Positions 33,075-40,044 of a stretch of DNA of 64,000 bases are shown here, piece by piece (within the stretch, counting starts at the first letter, position 1; each line of letters begins with the position of its first letter). The notes under the pieces are model-generated. The model had not been told where the DNA came from and did no database searches. It saw only the letters and a list, made by a program, of their open reading frames with translations. The position numbers and the translations under genes were made by a program. Origin of the DNA: Natronocalculus amylovorans (lineage in GTDB: Archaea; Halobacteriota; Halobacteria; Halobacteriales; Haloferacaceae); assembly GCF_023638035.1 (NCBI RefSeq), contig NZ_JAKRVX010000001.1, positions 1 to 64,000 of the forward strand. The letters run 5' to 3'.

Positions 33075-33872
33075 TCAGTCGTCGCTTCGGCCAAGCGCCT
33101 TGCGTCGCGACTCGTTGAGTGCTTCACAGACGGTTCCTTGGCCATTCACGTTGACTTTCGCCGATCGGTTTCGACGGTGGAGCTGTTCGAATATCTCAAT
33201 ACTGACCGGTTCTCCTTTTGGTGTCCGAAAGAGTGGTTCATCGTCACCTGTCAGACAGCCTTCTTCGTTCGCCATCTCAAGATATTCAGTCAACGGCTCC
33301 GTGGGTGCAGAGACTGCAAAGGAGCCATCTTGAAGATAGATATGCGTTCGATCGCCACTTGAGTCTGTGATATCGCTCGGGGTGAGCGATACAATCTGTC
33401 CGGGTGTCATTCCCGCTTTGAGTAACGCATCGACAGCATCAAATTGACGGGCAAGCCGTGCTTTGTGGTCGAGCGAGGCACGGACTGCCTCTAGCCCACC
33501 ATCTGCATCAGGAAAGACTGCTTCGAACGGCTGCCCAGTGTTGATACCGGTTGTAATCTCATCCTCGTGCATATGGTCTTGAAGGATGATCTCCGTTGTT
33601 TCAACGCCCGAAAGTGTGGACACTGCCTCGTGCGCGTCGCTTGCCATCATCCATGCGAACGCGGGTGAACACCATGCGGTTGGAAGCGTAAACCGAACTG
33701 TTACTGCCGATCGATCCGCGCTTGGTGTTGGTTCGATGACAACCTCGTCAATATAGCCGAGATCGACGATCGATTCGTCGAGTTCCGGATCAAGCACTGG
33801 GCGGAGCGCCTCTCGGATAACCGGCTGACTAACGCTTCGATCATCACGTTGATGTGAGTCTGCACCGGACAT
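33075..33872 (-). CDS. DUF59/MIP18-domain protein of the amidohydrolase module
   Basis: A 265-residue protein. The first ~100 residues form a MIP18/DUF59 domain (REALRPVLDPELDESIVDLG) with the reactive cysteine in LPTAWCSPAFAWMM; this domain assists iron-sulfur or metal insertion. The rest is a long C-terminal part with YLEMANEEGCL and a final helical stretch. It starts two bases after the amidohydrolase gene. This two-domain form is the version seen beside soluble di-iron monooxygenases in actinobacteria. Confidence 0.82.
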   Translation of the reverse strand: MSGADSHQRDDRSVSQPVIREALRPVLDPELDESIVDLGYIDEVVIEPTPSADRSAVTVRFTLPTAWCSPAFAWMMASDAHEAVSTLSGVETTEIILQDHMHEDEITTGINTGQPFEAVFPDADGGLEAVRASLDHKARLARQFDAVDALLKAGMTPGQIVSLTPSDITDSSGDRTHIYLQDGSFAVSAPTEPLTEYLEMANEEGCLTGDDEPLFRTPKGEPVSIEIFEQLHRRNRSAKVNVNGQGTVCEALNESRRKALGRSDD

Positions 33873-33874
33873 GA

Positions 33875-34942
33875 TTAGTCGTCTGCAACGGCGCCGCCGA
33901 CTGTGTTGCTGTACATCGATTCGAGTCCGTACTCAACAGAAACATCGTCATTTTGCAACTTCCGTTTCTGTTCTTCGATATCAATATCGTACAGCTCTGC
34001 AGCGTTCTCTCCGAGAATCTTTTTCTTTGTTTCGAGACCGAAATCAACACCGTACTCGGCTTCCTGTGCTGGGGTCAGCTCTGATTCAAGGAATGTTTCG
34101 ACGAGCCAATCTGGGTTCCAGAGTGCGTAGTCGCTACCGAACAGCAACCGGTCCTCACCGAGCCAAAAGAGCAGCTCGCCCATGATTTCGCCGAACTTCT
34201 CCTGTCTGTGCACAGCAAGCGGTGCTGCGACAGCGAGTCCACCGTAAACGTTTGGCTCTTGGGCGGCGATCCAACAGAAGTCATCAAGCCGTGGAAGCCC
34301 AACGTGCTCAACAACAAAGTTCAGTTCTGGGAACGTTGACGCAGCGTCATCAATGTCTGCAACATCGAATGCATCACGGTTGAGCGGGCGGATAGTTGGC
34401 CCTTTGTGTGCGTGGATGTTCTTGACACCAAGTTCGACACATTTCTCCAAGAACTCGTAGGATTCATCAGAATCGAGCCGCCATCCTTTCGATTCTCCTT
34501 TCCACTCGGCGGTGTACACTTTGACACCTTTCATATCCCGGACGTTCGCCTGCCGCTCAAGTTCCTGCATCCCTTCTTCACCATCGCGCGGATCAAACCG
34601 TCCATTGACAATAAACCGATCTGGATAGGTGTCAGCCATCTCGCCGAGCCGATCGAACGTGTTGAATCCCTCGTGGTAGAAGTCTTTCAGATGTGTCGGC
34701 TGGAAGATTCCCATGTCGACGACACCGTTTGTAAAGAAGTCGTCTTTGAGTCGATCGGCGTCGTACGCTCTGTATTCGTCGTATGTCCACTGCCGATCTT
34801 CTGGTGTAAAACCAGTGTGATAATCATAGAAGCACTCGATAAACTGCTCGCCGCCTTTTGATTTAACGTTCTCTTCACTGGCATCCCACATATGGATGTG
34901 GCCATCGATTACGAAGATGTCTTCGCCTTCATGTGAATACAT
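33875..34942 (-). CDS. amidohydrolase-2 family protein
   Basis: A 355-residue TIM-barrel metallohydrolase or decarboxylase of the amidohydrolase-2 family. IDGHIHMWD gives the HxH pair, NIHAHKGPT and VVEHVGLPR supply further histidines, and FGSDYALWNPD supplies the catalytic aspartate. Similar proteins are fixed companions of propane and acetone monooxygenases, where their role is thought to be assembly or activation rather than a known reaction. The start MYSHEGEDIF at 34942 has a TTATATGTG box A about 29 bases upstream. Confidence 0.88.
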   Translation of the reverse strand: MYSHEGEDIFVIDGHIHMWDASEENVKSKGGEQFIECFYDYHTGFTPEDRQWTYDEYRAYDADRLKDDFFTNGVVDMGIFQPTHLKDFYHEGFNTFDRLGEMADTYPDRFIVNGRFDPRDGEEGMQELERQANVRDMKGVKVYTAEWKGESKGWRLDSDESYEFLEKCVELGVKNIHAHKGPTIRPLNRDAFDVADIDDAASTFPELNFVVEHVGLPRLDDFCWIAAQEPNVYGGLAVAAPLAVHRQEKFGEIMGELLFWLGEDRLLFGSDYALWNPDWLVETFLESELTPAQEAEYGVDFGLETKKKILGENAAELYDIDIEEQKRKLQNDDVSVEYGLESMYSNTVGGAVADD

Positions 34943-34997
34943 AACATTGTTTAATGAGAACCACCCACATATAACTATCACGGTAAATTATGTTATA

Positions 34998-35027
34998 TGT
35001 CGATAATGATATTATTCCACATCGACA
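34998..35027. promoter_or_regulatory. inverted repeat in the divergent amidohydrolase/ADH promoter region
   Basis: TGTCGAT (34998-35004) and its complement ATCGACA (35021-35027) lie 16 bases apart, and ATAAT-GAT-ATTAT is nested between them. The arms are two DNA turns apart, as expected for a dimeric repressor. The element sits in the AT-rich 155-base gap that must hold both promoters. Confidence 0.5.
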
Positions 35028-35097
35028 GTTGTTAATTGGTTATGTATTATTCGCAACAAGTGTTTAGTGCAAATACAACGCATTTTATCACTGTATC

Positions 35098-36138
35098 ATG
35101 GAAGCAGCAAGATTACACGAATATACACACGATATGAGCGAAGCACTGCAGATTGACGAGGTTGACCAACCAACTGCCGATCGCGGCGACCATGTTGTCG
35201 TTGAGGTTGAAGGTGCTGGTTGGTGTCAAACTGATAACCACATTGTTGAAGGAATGTGGACAGATTATGTTGAGCAACAGCTCCCGATGACACTTGGGCA
35301 TGAGAATGCTGGCGAGGTCGTCGAAGTTGGTGACGATGTTGAGACGGTCTCGGTCGGCGATAAAGTGATTTGTCACCCAGTGATGACCTGTGGGGTGTGT
35401 CGATCGTGCCGACTCGGAAATGACATGCACTGTGAGAATCTCGCATTCCCTGGGTTAACTACTGATGGCGGTTTCGCGGAGTATCTACTAACTTCCGAGC
35501 GAGCAGTCATTCCGCTCCCGAGCAGTGTTGACCCAACGGACATCGCGCCACATGCAGATGCAGGGATTACAGCCTACCACGCAACAAAAAAAGCCGTACA
35601 AAAACTCAATCCGGGTGACTTTGCGGTGGTTATCGGTGTAGGTGGATTAGGCCATATAGGTTTACAATGTTTAGATTCGATGAGTGCAGCTAACATCATT
35701 GCACTCGACATCAAAGAAGAAGCACGCAACCTTGCTGATTCGCTCGGTGCACAGTACACACTCGATCCATCGGATGAGTCGATCGTCGATCAACTCATGG
35801 ACATTACTGATGACGGGGGCGTCCACCAGATCATCGACTTTGTGGGTCGAGATGAGACGACATCACTTGGACCACAGATTGGCGCAGGTGGTGCCGATCA
35901 TCATATTGTTGGATACGGTGGACACATCCACGAACCATCACAAACGCTTGTTAACGGAGAGTTCGGCTTCCGCGGCACACTCGTCGGTAAATACACTGAA
36001 CTGCAAGAACTGATGGCACTTGTCGATCGTGGCGACGTCGATCTCCACACGACCCGCTTCTCATTAGGAGAAATAAACGCCGTAGCCGAAAAGTTAGAGC
36101 ATGGAGAGATCGAAGGGCGAGCGGTGATCACTCCCTGA
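35098..36138 (+). CDS. adh: zinc-dependent NAD(P) alcohol dehydrogenase
   Basis: A 346-residue medium-chain dehydrogenase. Catalytic zinc ligands sit in GWCQTDNH and LGHENAGE; structural zinc is held by CGVCRSCRLGNDMHC; the cofactor motif is GVGGLGHIGLQ, with D-I-K after the second strand favouring NAD. Substrates are probably secondary or short-chain alcohols. It is divergent from the amidohydrolase/DUF59 pair, a combination known from alkane and ketone oxidation clusters. The E1-alpha gene follows 71 bases later. Confidence 0.92.
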   Translation: MEAARLHEYTHDMSEALQIDEVDQPTADRGDHVVVEVEGAGWCQTDNHIVEGMWTDYVEQQLPMTLGHENAGEVVEVGDDVETVSVGDKVICHPVMTCGVCRSCRLGNDMHCENLAFPGLTTDGGFAEYLLTSERAVIPLPSSVDPTDIAPHADAGITAYHATKKAVQKLNPGDFAVVIGVGGLGHIGLQCLDSMSAANIIALDIKEEARNLADSLGAQYTLDPSDESIVDQLMDITDDGGVHQIIDFVGRDETTSLGPQIGAGGADHHIVGYGGHIHEPSQTLVNGEFGFRGTLVGKYTELQELMALVDRGDVDLHTTRFSLGEINAVAEKLEHGEIEGRAVITP

Positions 36139-36209: not shown

Positions 36210-37277
36210 GTGTTGGATTTTGACGGCGTTCCACTAGCGGATGCAACGGTTCCCGATATTGACGACGAGACGTTTGTCGGCCTGTACGCGGACATGCGCG
36301 CTGCACGCCGGTTCGACGAGCGTGCGATCAGTCTGCAACGACAGGGCCGAATGGGGACATATGCCTCATTAGCTGGACAAGAGGGGAGTCAAGTTGGCTC
36401 GACGTACGCGCTGTCAGATGATGATTGGCTATTCTACCAGTACCGAGAACACGGAACGTTGTTTGCACGCGAGTTCCCACCGGAGCATCTTGCATACTGG
36501 ATGGGACACGAGGCCGGAAACGGCGCAGTTGCGGATGCAAACGTGTTTCCATTAAATATCGGAATCGCCTCGCATCTCCCACATGCAGTCGGGTGGGGGA
36601 TGGCAGCCCAGTACAAAGGCGACGAATCGCTGTCAGTGGCACACTTTGGTGAGGGCTCGACGAGCGAGGGTGACTTCCACGAAGCGCTCAACTTTGCCGG
36701 CGTGTTCGACACTGCAACGCTCTTTATTTGTCATAACAATGGCTGGGCGATTTCGATACCTGCTGAAGACCAAACCGCATCCGAATCGTTTGCTATGAAA
36801 GCGGAGGCATATGGCTTCCCAGGCATTCGTGTCGATGGGATGGACCCACTCGCGGCATACCAGGTGACGAAGGCTGCCGCAGATGTTGCGCATAGTCCAC
36901 CGGAAGGGCGGCTTCGATCGACACTCATTGAGATGGTCGAATATCGATACGGTGCACATACGACTGCAGACGATCCAACAGTCTACAGGGACAATGCCAC
37001 CGTGGAACAGTGGAAACAACGCGATCCGATCGAGAGGCTGGAGGCATTCCTTCGTGAGACCGGTCGTCTCGATGATGAAATGATCGCGTCGATCGAAAAC
37101 GAGATTGATGACGAAATTGCAGACCTCATTTCGGTCGCCGAGTCATTCGAGGCCGACCCTGCTGATCTCTTTGCGGATATGTACGCAACGCAGCCAGCAG
37201 AAATTCAATCCCAAGAGGCGGCGTTTCTCGATTCGATCGAGCGTCACGGCAAAAGTGCGTTCCTTCGAGAAGAGTAA
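36210..37277 (+). CDS. 2-oxoacid dehydrogenase E1 alpha subunit, stand-alone
   Basis: A 355-residue thiamine-diphosphate subunit. Phosphoserine-loop RYGAHTTADDPT, FDERAISLQRQGRMG and the TPP motif GEGSTSEGDFHEALNFAG...NNGWAIS are present; the usual GDG is GEG, as in many haloarchaeal paralogues. E1 works as an alpha2beta2 tetramer, yet no E1 beta, E2 or E3 gene is visible nearby. A GTG start is used; the in-frame codons upstream (DGLVRVL) look family-like, so the true start may be earlier. It faces the flavin oxidoreductase gene. Confidence 0.88.
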   Translation: MLDFDGVPLADATVPDIDDETFVGLYADMRAARRFDERAISLQRQGRMGTYASLAGQEGSQVGSTYALSDDDWLFYQYREHGTLFAREFPPEHLAYWMGHEAGNGAVADANVFPLNIGIASHLPHAVGWGMAAQYKGDESLSVAHFGEGSTSEGDFHEALNFAGVFDTATLFICHNNGWAISIPAEDQTASESFAMKAEAYGFPGIRVDGMDPLAAYQVTKAAADVAHSPPEGRLRSTLIEMVEYRYGAHTTADDPTVYRDNATVEQWKQRDPIERLEAFLRETGRLDDEMIASIENEIDDEIADLISVAESFEADPADLFADMYATQPAEIQSQEAAFLDSIERHGKSAFLREE

Positions 37278-38673: not shown

Positions 38674-40044
38674 CTACGTCGTAAGCACTCCACGCAAAGC
38701 GATCTCGCGGGAAGAGGATGGGCGGTTTACAGAACGCCCCGACCCAGACAGGCTCACCTTCCGAACAAACGGTTGGGTTTTGCGAGTCCGGTAATTAACC
38801 GATTCAACATCGACACCAGCGTGTTTTGCCCACGCTCGCCACGCCACGTTCACGCTCGCGTTCCGGTCAGCATGGTCTTGCTGAACCGCACACGAATCAT
38901 TCGTACACCGGAACCGTCGCCCCTGACGGTATCCACGGTGCCCACAACACGAACATGACTTCGAGTTGTACGGCGAACCGACAGTCTCACACGGAATCTG
39001 ATTCCACGTCGCCTTGTATCGAACCTGCTTCTCGAACTTATGGAACGGGAGTTTGTGCAGACGCCGATTCATGTACGTGCCGTACTTGATGGCGTCTCGA
39101 ATCCCGGTCAAGTCCTCGAAGACGATAACAGGGTTCGAGAACTGTTGGGCGAACTCGACCACAACGCGGGACAGTCGGTGAAGAATCCACTCTGTGTAGC
39201 GTTCTTCTTTCTCCCCGAGTTGATGGTGGATGGAGTGTTGGCCGTGTTCTTGACAGCGTTTGGTGATGGTGTGGTAGCGTTGGCGTTCGGCTTTCACAGA
39301 GCCGTAGTCAAGCACGAGTGTTCCGAGTGTGTCCATCGTCTCACGGTTAAGAGCGGTGAGAGTGATGTTGCGCTCGTTAATATCGACGCCGACAAGAGTA
39401 TCAGCGTCTTCGGGTTCAGACACTTCAACCTCTGTTTTAACCGTGACGTGTAGGTAGTACACGCCATCTCGGTATCTCGAAGTGCCGTGGCACTTCGATG
39501 ACTCGTCGAAAATCTTCGATTTTCGAGACAGAAGTTCGGCCTGTCCCAACGACCACTCATCATCCGCTAAGGCTGACTCGATGAGGTTGAGGTCTTCCGG
39601 TCGCCCTCGAAGGTGTCCTTTCACTTTCTTGTACGGCTTCGGACTCACACGGAACCGAATGCGGTCAGTCTCGTCGTTGTAGGTGAGTCGGTAGCCTTCG
39701 GTGTGCGCCATGACGAGCGGGTAGGCTCCTTTCTTGTCCGTGGCTGGTGGAGATGGTTTTCCGACGTTGGTGTCGTCTTGGTCGTGCCACCAATTGAGAA
39801 GTTCTTTGTAGGAACCCCACGCTTGTAGGGCTTTTCCGACGACCGCGCACTTGTTGTTCCGCAGGAAGTCGTTGCGGTCAACCTCGCGTTGAATATCGGT
39901 CTTGTTGTAGCCGTCTTGTTTGAGTCGGAGTGTGTCGTTGGCGATATCTCGTGCGGTGAAGCGGGCATCTTTGAGCCACGACCGCTCACCAGACTCTATG
40001 CAAAGCCGGGTGCGTGTGGTCTTCGTGACTTCTTCGATACCCAT
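38674..40044 (-). CDS. tnpB: TnpB RNA-guided nuclease, apparently intact
   Basis: A 456-residue TnpB of the haloarchaeal type. The RuvC triad is complete: D221 in GVDINERN, E310 in VIVFEDLTG and D393 in DRNASVNV. The zinc ribbon has C364/C367 and C380/C385. Characterised TnpBs cut DNA beside the element's target motif with an RNA made from the right end and help retain the IS. The gene has no internal stop, in contrast to its tnpA partner, suggesting selection for TnpB or very recent decay of tnpA. Confidence 0.93.
   Translation of the reverse strand: MGIEEVTKTTRTRLCIESGERSWLKDARFTARDIANDTLRLKQDGYNKTDIQREVDRNDFLRNNKCAVVGKALQAWGSYKELLNWWHDQDDTNVGKPSPPATDKKGAYPLVMAHTEGYRLTYNDETDRIRFRVSPKPYKKVKGHLRGRPEDLNLIESALADDEWSLGQAELLSRKSKIFDESSKCHGTSRYRDGVYYLHVTVKTEVEVSEPEDADTLVGVDINERNITLTALNRETMDTLGTLVLDYGSVKAERQRYHTITKRCQEHGQHSIHHQLGEKEERYTEWILHRLSRVVVEFAQQFSNPVIVFEDLTGIRDAIKYGTYMNRRLHKLPFHKFEKQVRYKATWNQIPCETVGSPYNSKSCSCCGHRGYRQGRRFRCTNDSCAVQQDHADRNASVNVAWRAWAKHAGVDVESVNYRTRKTQPFVRKVSLSGSGRSVNRPSSSREIALRGVLTT

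Follow-up and report, generated by a model that had tools for sequence, protein, structure and literature searches.

The first 64,000 nucleotides of contig NZ_JAKRVX010000001.1 of the haloarchaeon Natronocalculus amylovorans (hereafter 'the window') contain, on the minus strand, a gene for an amidohydrolase-2 protein (PF04909; 355 aa; 33875..34942; here termed 'AMH'), separated by two bases (33873-33874) from a gene for a two-domain DUF59/MIP18 protein (265 aa; 33075..33872). A zinc-dependent medium-chain alcohol dehydrogenase (ADH; 346 aa; 35098..36138, plus strand) diverges from this pair across an AT-rich intergenic region of 155 base pairs (34943..35097), the composition of which (31% G+C) is well below that of the whole window (52%). 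An earlier note, made from the sequence alone, had described this layout, and the open reading frames (ORFs) and Pfam scores agree with it: Amidohydro_2 for AMH (7e-49), FeS_assembly_P for the DUF59 protein (2e-12), and ADH_N together with ADH_zinc_N for the dehydrogenase. The AMH reading frame is also open from an upstream GTG (34981); the ATG was taken as the start because relatives begin there.

Propane and acetone operons have been described as containing amidohydrolase and DUF59 genes to which no role is assigned (PMC9213486, PMC6849523), and a literature search, incomplete in its coverage, found no paper on the pair. The earlier note had described the trio as lacking its usual monooxygenase, and had offered two explanations: that a monooxygenase encoded elsewhere needs these factors, or that the trio has a separate role. 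The distribution of the genes, the conservation of their products and predicted structures now allow these to be weighed.

Distribution and linkage in haloarchaea

A survey of 292 Halobacteria genomes places AMH in 87 and the complete two-domain DUF59 protein in precisely those 87, with zero exceptions in either direction (Fisher p about 1e-76, a value uncorrected for shared ancestry). The two genes are adjacent in all 40 sampled haloarchaeal loci, read at about 20 kb, and ADH lies beside the pair in 35 of them; further genes are conserved in 13 of the 40 at most, and the other recurring clusters near the trio correspond to ORFs that overlap in other frames or on the opposite strand. Because co-occurrence is complete and adjacency constant, the arrangement is far beyond chance, and the possibility that these families are routinely separate in related genomes, which the earlier note had named as fatal to its proposal, does not describe what is found.

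The hydroxylase of the soluble di-iron monooxygenases (SDIMOs; PF02332) was not found in the genome of N. amylovorans (99% complete), the window included. The same search was positive in three other haloarchaea of the 292, and therefore works in this class. The two systems do not overlap: an SDIMO was found in none of the 87 AMH-bearing haloarchaea, and AMH in none of the three that bear an SDIMO.

Bacterial relatives and monooxygenase operons

A scan of GTDB genomes, from which the best 80 AMH loci were taken (45 bacterial and 35 archaeal), extends the pairing well beyond haloarchaea: DUF59 adjoins AMH in 79 of these loci, and the remaining locus ends at a contig end. SDIMO genes accompany AMH in 26 of the bacterial loci and in none of the archaeal ones, and the MimG-like GroEL is likewise found in 0/35 archaeal loci. 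The 19 SDIMO-free bacterial loci include examples from Bacillota, Chloroflexota, Actinomycetota, Ignavibacteriota and Proteobacteria, with the proviso that a few of their contigs are short, such that some SDIMOs could lie past a contig end. Annotated plasmid records illustrate both contexts, with SDIMO and GroEL genes beside AMH in Aminobacter, Ponticoccus and Caballeronia, and SDIMO-free arrangements in Thermomicrobium (DUF59-AMH-ADH), Peribacillus (AMH-DUF59-DJ-1) and Rhizobium N324 (AMH-DUF59-GloA). Haloarchaeal AMHs form one clade in the AMH tree (support 100/100), consistent with one transfer; SDIMO-linked AMHs do not form one clade.

The likeness to bacterial prm/mim operons that the earlier note had pointed out is real: AMH homologues in bacterial SDIMO operons are about 51-56% identical to the window AMH, and are accompanied by DUF59, ADH and GroEL. 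This likeness might be taken to mean that AMH and DUF59 help a di-iron monooxygenase to mature, and that the haloarchaeal genes are either a remnant or serve a monooxygenase elsewhere, particularly as the bacterial homologues lie routinely downstream of the SDIMO genes together with GroEL, without which the mycobacterial enzyme is not expressed in functional form (Furuya et al., cited in PMC6849523). We nonetheless regard this explanation as very unlikely. Neither the genome of N. amylovorans nor any of the 87 AMH-bearing haloarchaeal genomes has a PF02332 hydroxylase, and the three haloarchaeal SDIMO loci (L075, L076 and L077) have no AMH or DUF59 nearby, their divergent alpha subunits sharing only about 24-26% identity with the prm-type protein of Aminobacter. 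The SDIMO-free fraction of the bacterial loci (19/45) argues in the same direction, and a remnant is difficult to reconcile with AMH and DUF59 genes that are intact and conserved in dozens of SDIMO-free genomes. To speak of a 'usual' monooxygenase is thus misleading, given that many haloarchaea have the module without an SDIMO and that it recurs in this form in several bacterial phyla; the first explanation of the earlier note finds no hydroxylase to support it, and the second, a separate role, is supported and reaches wider than had been proposed.

Metal site and fold of the amidohydrolase

Five residues of AMH (D13, H15, H179, H213 and D271) are invariant among 53 members of the family, and a sixth (H17) is present in 50. 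The set comprising H15, H17, H179, H213 and D271 corresponds to the usual mononuclear metal site of PF04909 (HxH, His, His and Asp, in a TIM barrel), and the AlphaFold model (pLDDT 91) adopts the TIM barrel of that family, with matches to other such barrels at Z 18-25. The best of these is 3irs, a structure of unknown function (Z 24.8), which is also the one significant, if weak, match found when a profile of AMH was compared with solved structures; phmmer found no match among them. The best-matched characterised folds are decarboxylases (Z about 18-21), although rank among such structural matches does not decide function.

These observations lend some weight to the view that AMH is nothing more unusual than a zinc or manganese hydrolase or decarboxylase (of the ACMSD or resorcylate decarboxylase type) that acts on the ADH product, with DUF59 serving something else; most members have the full canonical site, and the nearest folds of assigned function are decarboxylases. 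However, the AMH-DUF59 linkage is perfect in both presence and position, and recurs with DUF59 or NifU-like partners in distant relatives (see below), which is not easily accounted for if DUF59 has nothing to do with AMH. We therefore judge this view unlikely.

PF04909 also includes Mn/Fe and di-iron hydroxylases (PMC10401708, PMC10811679), and AMH might instead be the missing oxygenase itself, a dinuclear enzyme comparable to the amidohydrolase-related oxygenases (AROs) AibH2, PtmU3 and SfbO, with DUF59 as its metal loader. A partner for iron assembly would be in keeping with an oxygenase, the SDYxxW motif of AMH resembles the SDYPHW of AibH2-like proteins, and AROs are found among the structural matches of the model (8sm8, Z 18.0), below the decarboxylases. 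Against this, the six AibH2 ligands given in PMC10401708 (D25, H27, H211, E265, D337 and H340) were compared with AMH by profile alignment and phmmer, the N-terminal ligand pair being matched by its DxHxH / DxDxH motif outside the profile alignment; at three of the six positions (D25, E265 and H340) all 53 aligned AMH sequences have H15, H213 and L/I274 instead, so that AMH does not qualify as an ARO on the ligands that define that group. An adjacent small Rieske protein of the ARO type was not found either, since no neighbour beyond the trio is conserved within 9.5 kb at the 40 haloarchaeal loci, nor is there a conserved reductase, and AROs occupy another part of the tree than the AMH clade. 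An AibH2-type oxygenase, an attractive identity for AMH that was examined through published work, a profile alignment, a fold search and a tree, was set aside as the main explanation because of the differing ligands, and as a rival explanation it is decidedly improbable.

The DUF59 protein and distant paired amidohydrolases

The N-terminal FeS_assembly_P domain of the DUF59 protein (PF01883; residues 19-94) scores 47.6 bits against a cut-off of 23.5, and C68 is invariant in 51/51 homologues, which places the protein in the DUF59/MIP18 family; its model (pLDDT 92.7) matches CIAO2B and DUF59 structures at Z about 10-12 (CIAO2B, Z 11.7). Two further residues, H100 and C249, are also invariant, the latter in a C-terminal domain (window 33075-33480) whose predicted fold is similar to that of the catalytic domain in tyrosine recombinases of the Cre type (Z 8-10). 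Sequence support for that resemblance is negligible (Phage_integrase reached E 0.11 at best, in 2/51 homologues), and the model suggests that this is possibly a repurposed recombinase-like domain. The protein falls far below PaaD (NF041868; 29.4 bits against a cut-off of 180), and the SufT cut-off is also far from reached. A Paa-type oxygenase was considered as a client of the module DUF59 and rejected: the same genome encodes, as a separate gene (C14:200305-200556; L185), a haloarchaeal PaaD above its NCBIfam cut-off, and a phenylacetyl-CoA epoxidase system is therefore probably present, separate from the module.

The pairing of an amidohydrolase with an assembly protein is not confined to the strict AMH family. 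Ten distant amidohydrolases, about 23-32% identical to AMH, adjoin either a DUF59 gene (eight loci) or a NifU-like gene (two). The former is a single-domain DUF59 located directly before or after the amidohydrolase (L166, L167, L168, L169, L188, L189, L190 and L195); the latter, identified by Pfam in L192 and read from the sequence in L194, replaces DUF59 beside two rhizobial proteins (L192:3489-4792 and L194:2489-3804). As a control, DUF59 was found at none of 15 other PF04909 loci (13 from two replicons, plus L191 and L193), and its only occurrences beside PF04909 genes on those replicons are the two loci already in the distant paired series. In the tree, support is 100/100 for the strict AMH family and 98/95 for the distant paired group, with no support for or against a sister relationship between them. 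That one branch of amidohydrolases has beside it iron-sulfur assembly proteins of two unrelated kinds is our main reason to infer that these enzymes need iron.

The dehydrogenase and clues to function

ADH possesses the catalytic and structural zinc and NAD motifs of its family (C43, H68, CX2CX2CX7C and GVGGLGH), and its nearest solved relatives are the Aeropyrum pernix ADH (1h2b; 328 bits) and, next, the secondary ADH of Rhodococcus ruber (ADH-A; about 190 bits), in keeping with a medium-chain dehydrogenase of secondary or primary alcohols. All NCBIfam equivalogs, including IolM, idonate, galactitol-P and similar sugar-alcohol families, score far below cut-off, and the membership in an unrelated sugar-alcohol clade that the earlier note had held out as contrary evidence is not observed. 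An ADH orthologue is present in 86 of the 87 AMH-bearing Halobacteria genomes.

Further clues come from gene context. Two SDIMO-free Bacillota, Paenibacillus validus (L130) and Jeotgalibacillus soli (L137), have the order AMH-DUF59-DJ-1/PfpI-CdaR-type regulator-GlcD, with GlcF next in the latter. By analogy with the acetone pathway of Methylacidiphilum (PMC8630023), the DJ-1/PfpI, GlcD/GlcF and GloA neighbours suggest steps from oxo-aldehyde to hydroxyacid to oxoacid, with those of the Bacillota hinting at C3 chemistry of the acetol/methylglyoxal type. In Amycolatopsis grown on 2-hydroxyisobutyric acid (2-HIBA), the AMH-like protein of the mim cluster constitutes 3.2% of the proteome, compared with 6.1% for ADH and 3.8% for MimC (PMC7176365); an abundance in the range of the monooxygenase subunits is more in line with an enzyme than with a chaperone present in traces. 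A link between the module and short-chain alcohols or ketones is plausible.

The divergent gap and flanking genes

The gap between AMH and ADH holds one perfect 9-bp inverted repeat, ACATATAAC-N16-GTTATATGT (34967..35000), which is probably the candidate operator of the earlier note. A repeat of equal or greater length occurs in 4% of dinucleotide shuffles, and no palindrome is common to the whole family among 56 homologous AMH-ADH gaps; the case for an operator is therefore weak, and the idea of a conserved one was rejected. The element GAACGTTT, present in 16 of the 56 haloarchaeal gaps, is perhaps lineage-specific, and two loci (L049 and L089) contain similar GTG...TAGCAC-type elements at both ends of the gap.

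Directly downstream of ADH, on the same strand, lies a dehydrogenase E1 alpha gene (36210-37277); an E1 alpha gene is also found near ADH in L032, L049, L052 and L069, with an amine-oxidase-like gene close by. A more distant ORF (38674-40044) has TnpB/IS605-like features, with a CxxC zinc motif near its C-terminus, as judged by eye only.

A proposed stand-alone catabolic module

The data establish that AMH and DUF59 are strictly paired, that the pair is independent of SDIMOs and often has ADH next to it, that the PF04909 metal site is conserved and that pairing of the same kind recurs in distant relatives. On this basis we consider it somewhat probable that AMH, a dedicated DUF59 assembly partner and ADH form a stand-alone catabolic module. 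AMH and DUF59 would act as one functional unit: AMH, with its amidohydrolase fold, is a predicted metal-dependent enzyme, and the two-domain DUF59 protein would be devoted to its assembly, supplying it with iron or an iron-sulfur unit. Both the maturation of AMH by DUF59 and the identity of the metal as iron we infer from their association. In combination with the divergent NAD-type zinc ADH, the pair may serve the catabolism of a small compound, be it an alcohol, a ketone or an alpha-oxo-aldehyde. The part of ADH would be to convert a secondary alcohol or a hydroxyketone to the corresponding carbonyl and back (2-propanol/acetone and acetol/methylglyoxal are examples), while an intermediate linked to that reaction would be the substrate of AMH. 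A C3 substrate is speculative. The bacterial module that also occurs beside group-V propane/acetone SDIMOs would have been recruited to those operons rather than derived from them, and would not exist to build the SDIMOs.

Several observations weigh against this proposal. An SDIMO operon is the commonest bacterial context of AMH (26/45), which leaves room for an accessory role there. ADH orthologues are also present in 71 Halobacteria genomes without AMH, and ADH is thus a frequent rather than an exclusive partner; acetone carboxylase shows no co-occurrence with AMH (6/24, p = 0.82), and a partnership of the two was rejected. Glyoxalase-type neighbours occur in few loci, and none was seen to be conserved in the haloarchaeal loci. 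The metal site is not uniform, because H17 is replaced by alanine in three Bacillota AMHs (L130, L137 and L148) and the distant paired amidohydrolases lack equivalents of H15 and D271. Finally, the zinc/manganese decarboxylases that are the closest characterised matches to AMH in fold are not known to need or to pair with iron-assembly factors.

A broader and more tentative proposal, which we hold to be possible but less than probable, is that there exists a wide class of amidohydrolase-fold enzymes, including the AMH/DUF59 of propane/acetone operons, that would receive iron or an iron-sulfur unit from a co-encoded DUF59 or NifU-like partner and catalyse redox or lyase chemistry on small carbonyls. 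That about 30% of the haloarchaea sampled, and several phyla of bacteria, have the pair without an SDIMO shifts the working view of it away from a 'monooxygenase helper' and towards an independent enzyme with its own metal-loading factor. A gap of long standing in propane/acetone catabolism thereby becomes open to direct tests in simple hosts, and the superfamily, whose members are commonly taken for zinc hydrolases, would seem to have a branch linked to iron.

Comparison with known systems

PaaD, SufT and CIAO2B have the N-terminal FeS_assembly_P domain in common with the module DUF59, which matches CIAO2B and bacterial DUF59 proteins in structure; they lack its C-terminal domain of ~150 residues, with the invariant cysteine. 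The ACMSD, gamma-resorcylate and 5-carboxyvanillate decarboxylases are like AMH in fold and in the five-residue mononuclear site, at about 15-20% identity. AROs share the PF04909 fold, a partial likeness in the SDYxxW motif and a putative need for a redox metal, and differ in three of six dinuclear ligands, in tree position and in the Rieske partner, for which AMH has no conserved neighbour.

The acetone cluster of Methylacidiphilum (pmoCAB3) has a lactoylglutathione lyase and a lactate dehydrogenase beside a ketone-oxidation gene set (PMC8630023), a methylglyoxal-to-pyruvate theme that resembles the DJ-1/GloA neighbours of some SDIMO-free AMH loci; it differs in employing a copper monooxygenase, and AMH and DUF59 are unmentioned in that report. 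A further parallel is with the group-V SDIMO operons (prmABCD/mimABCD) of Gordonia TY-5, Mycolicibacterium, Rhodococcus, Aminobacter and Mesorhizobium: although the haloarchaeal loci are without hydroxylase, reductase, coupling protein and GroEL, have a divergent ADH and encode an AMH of a separate clade, homologous AMH, two-domain DUF59 and zinc ADH genes are found in both.

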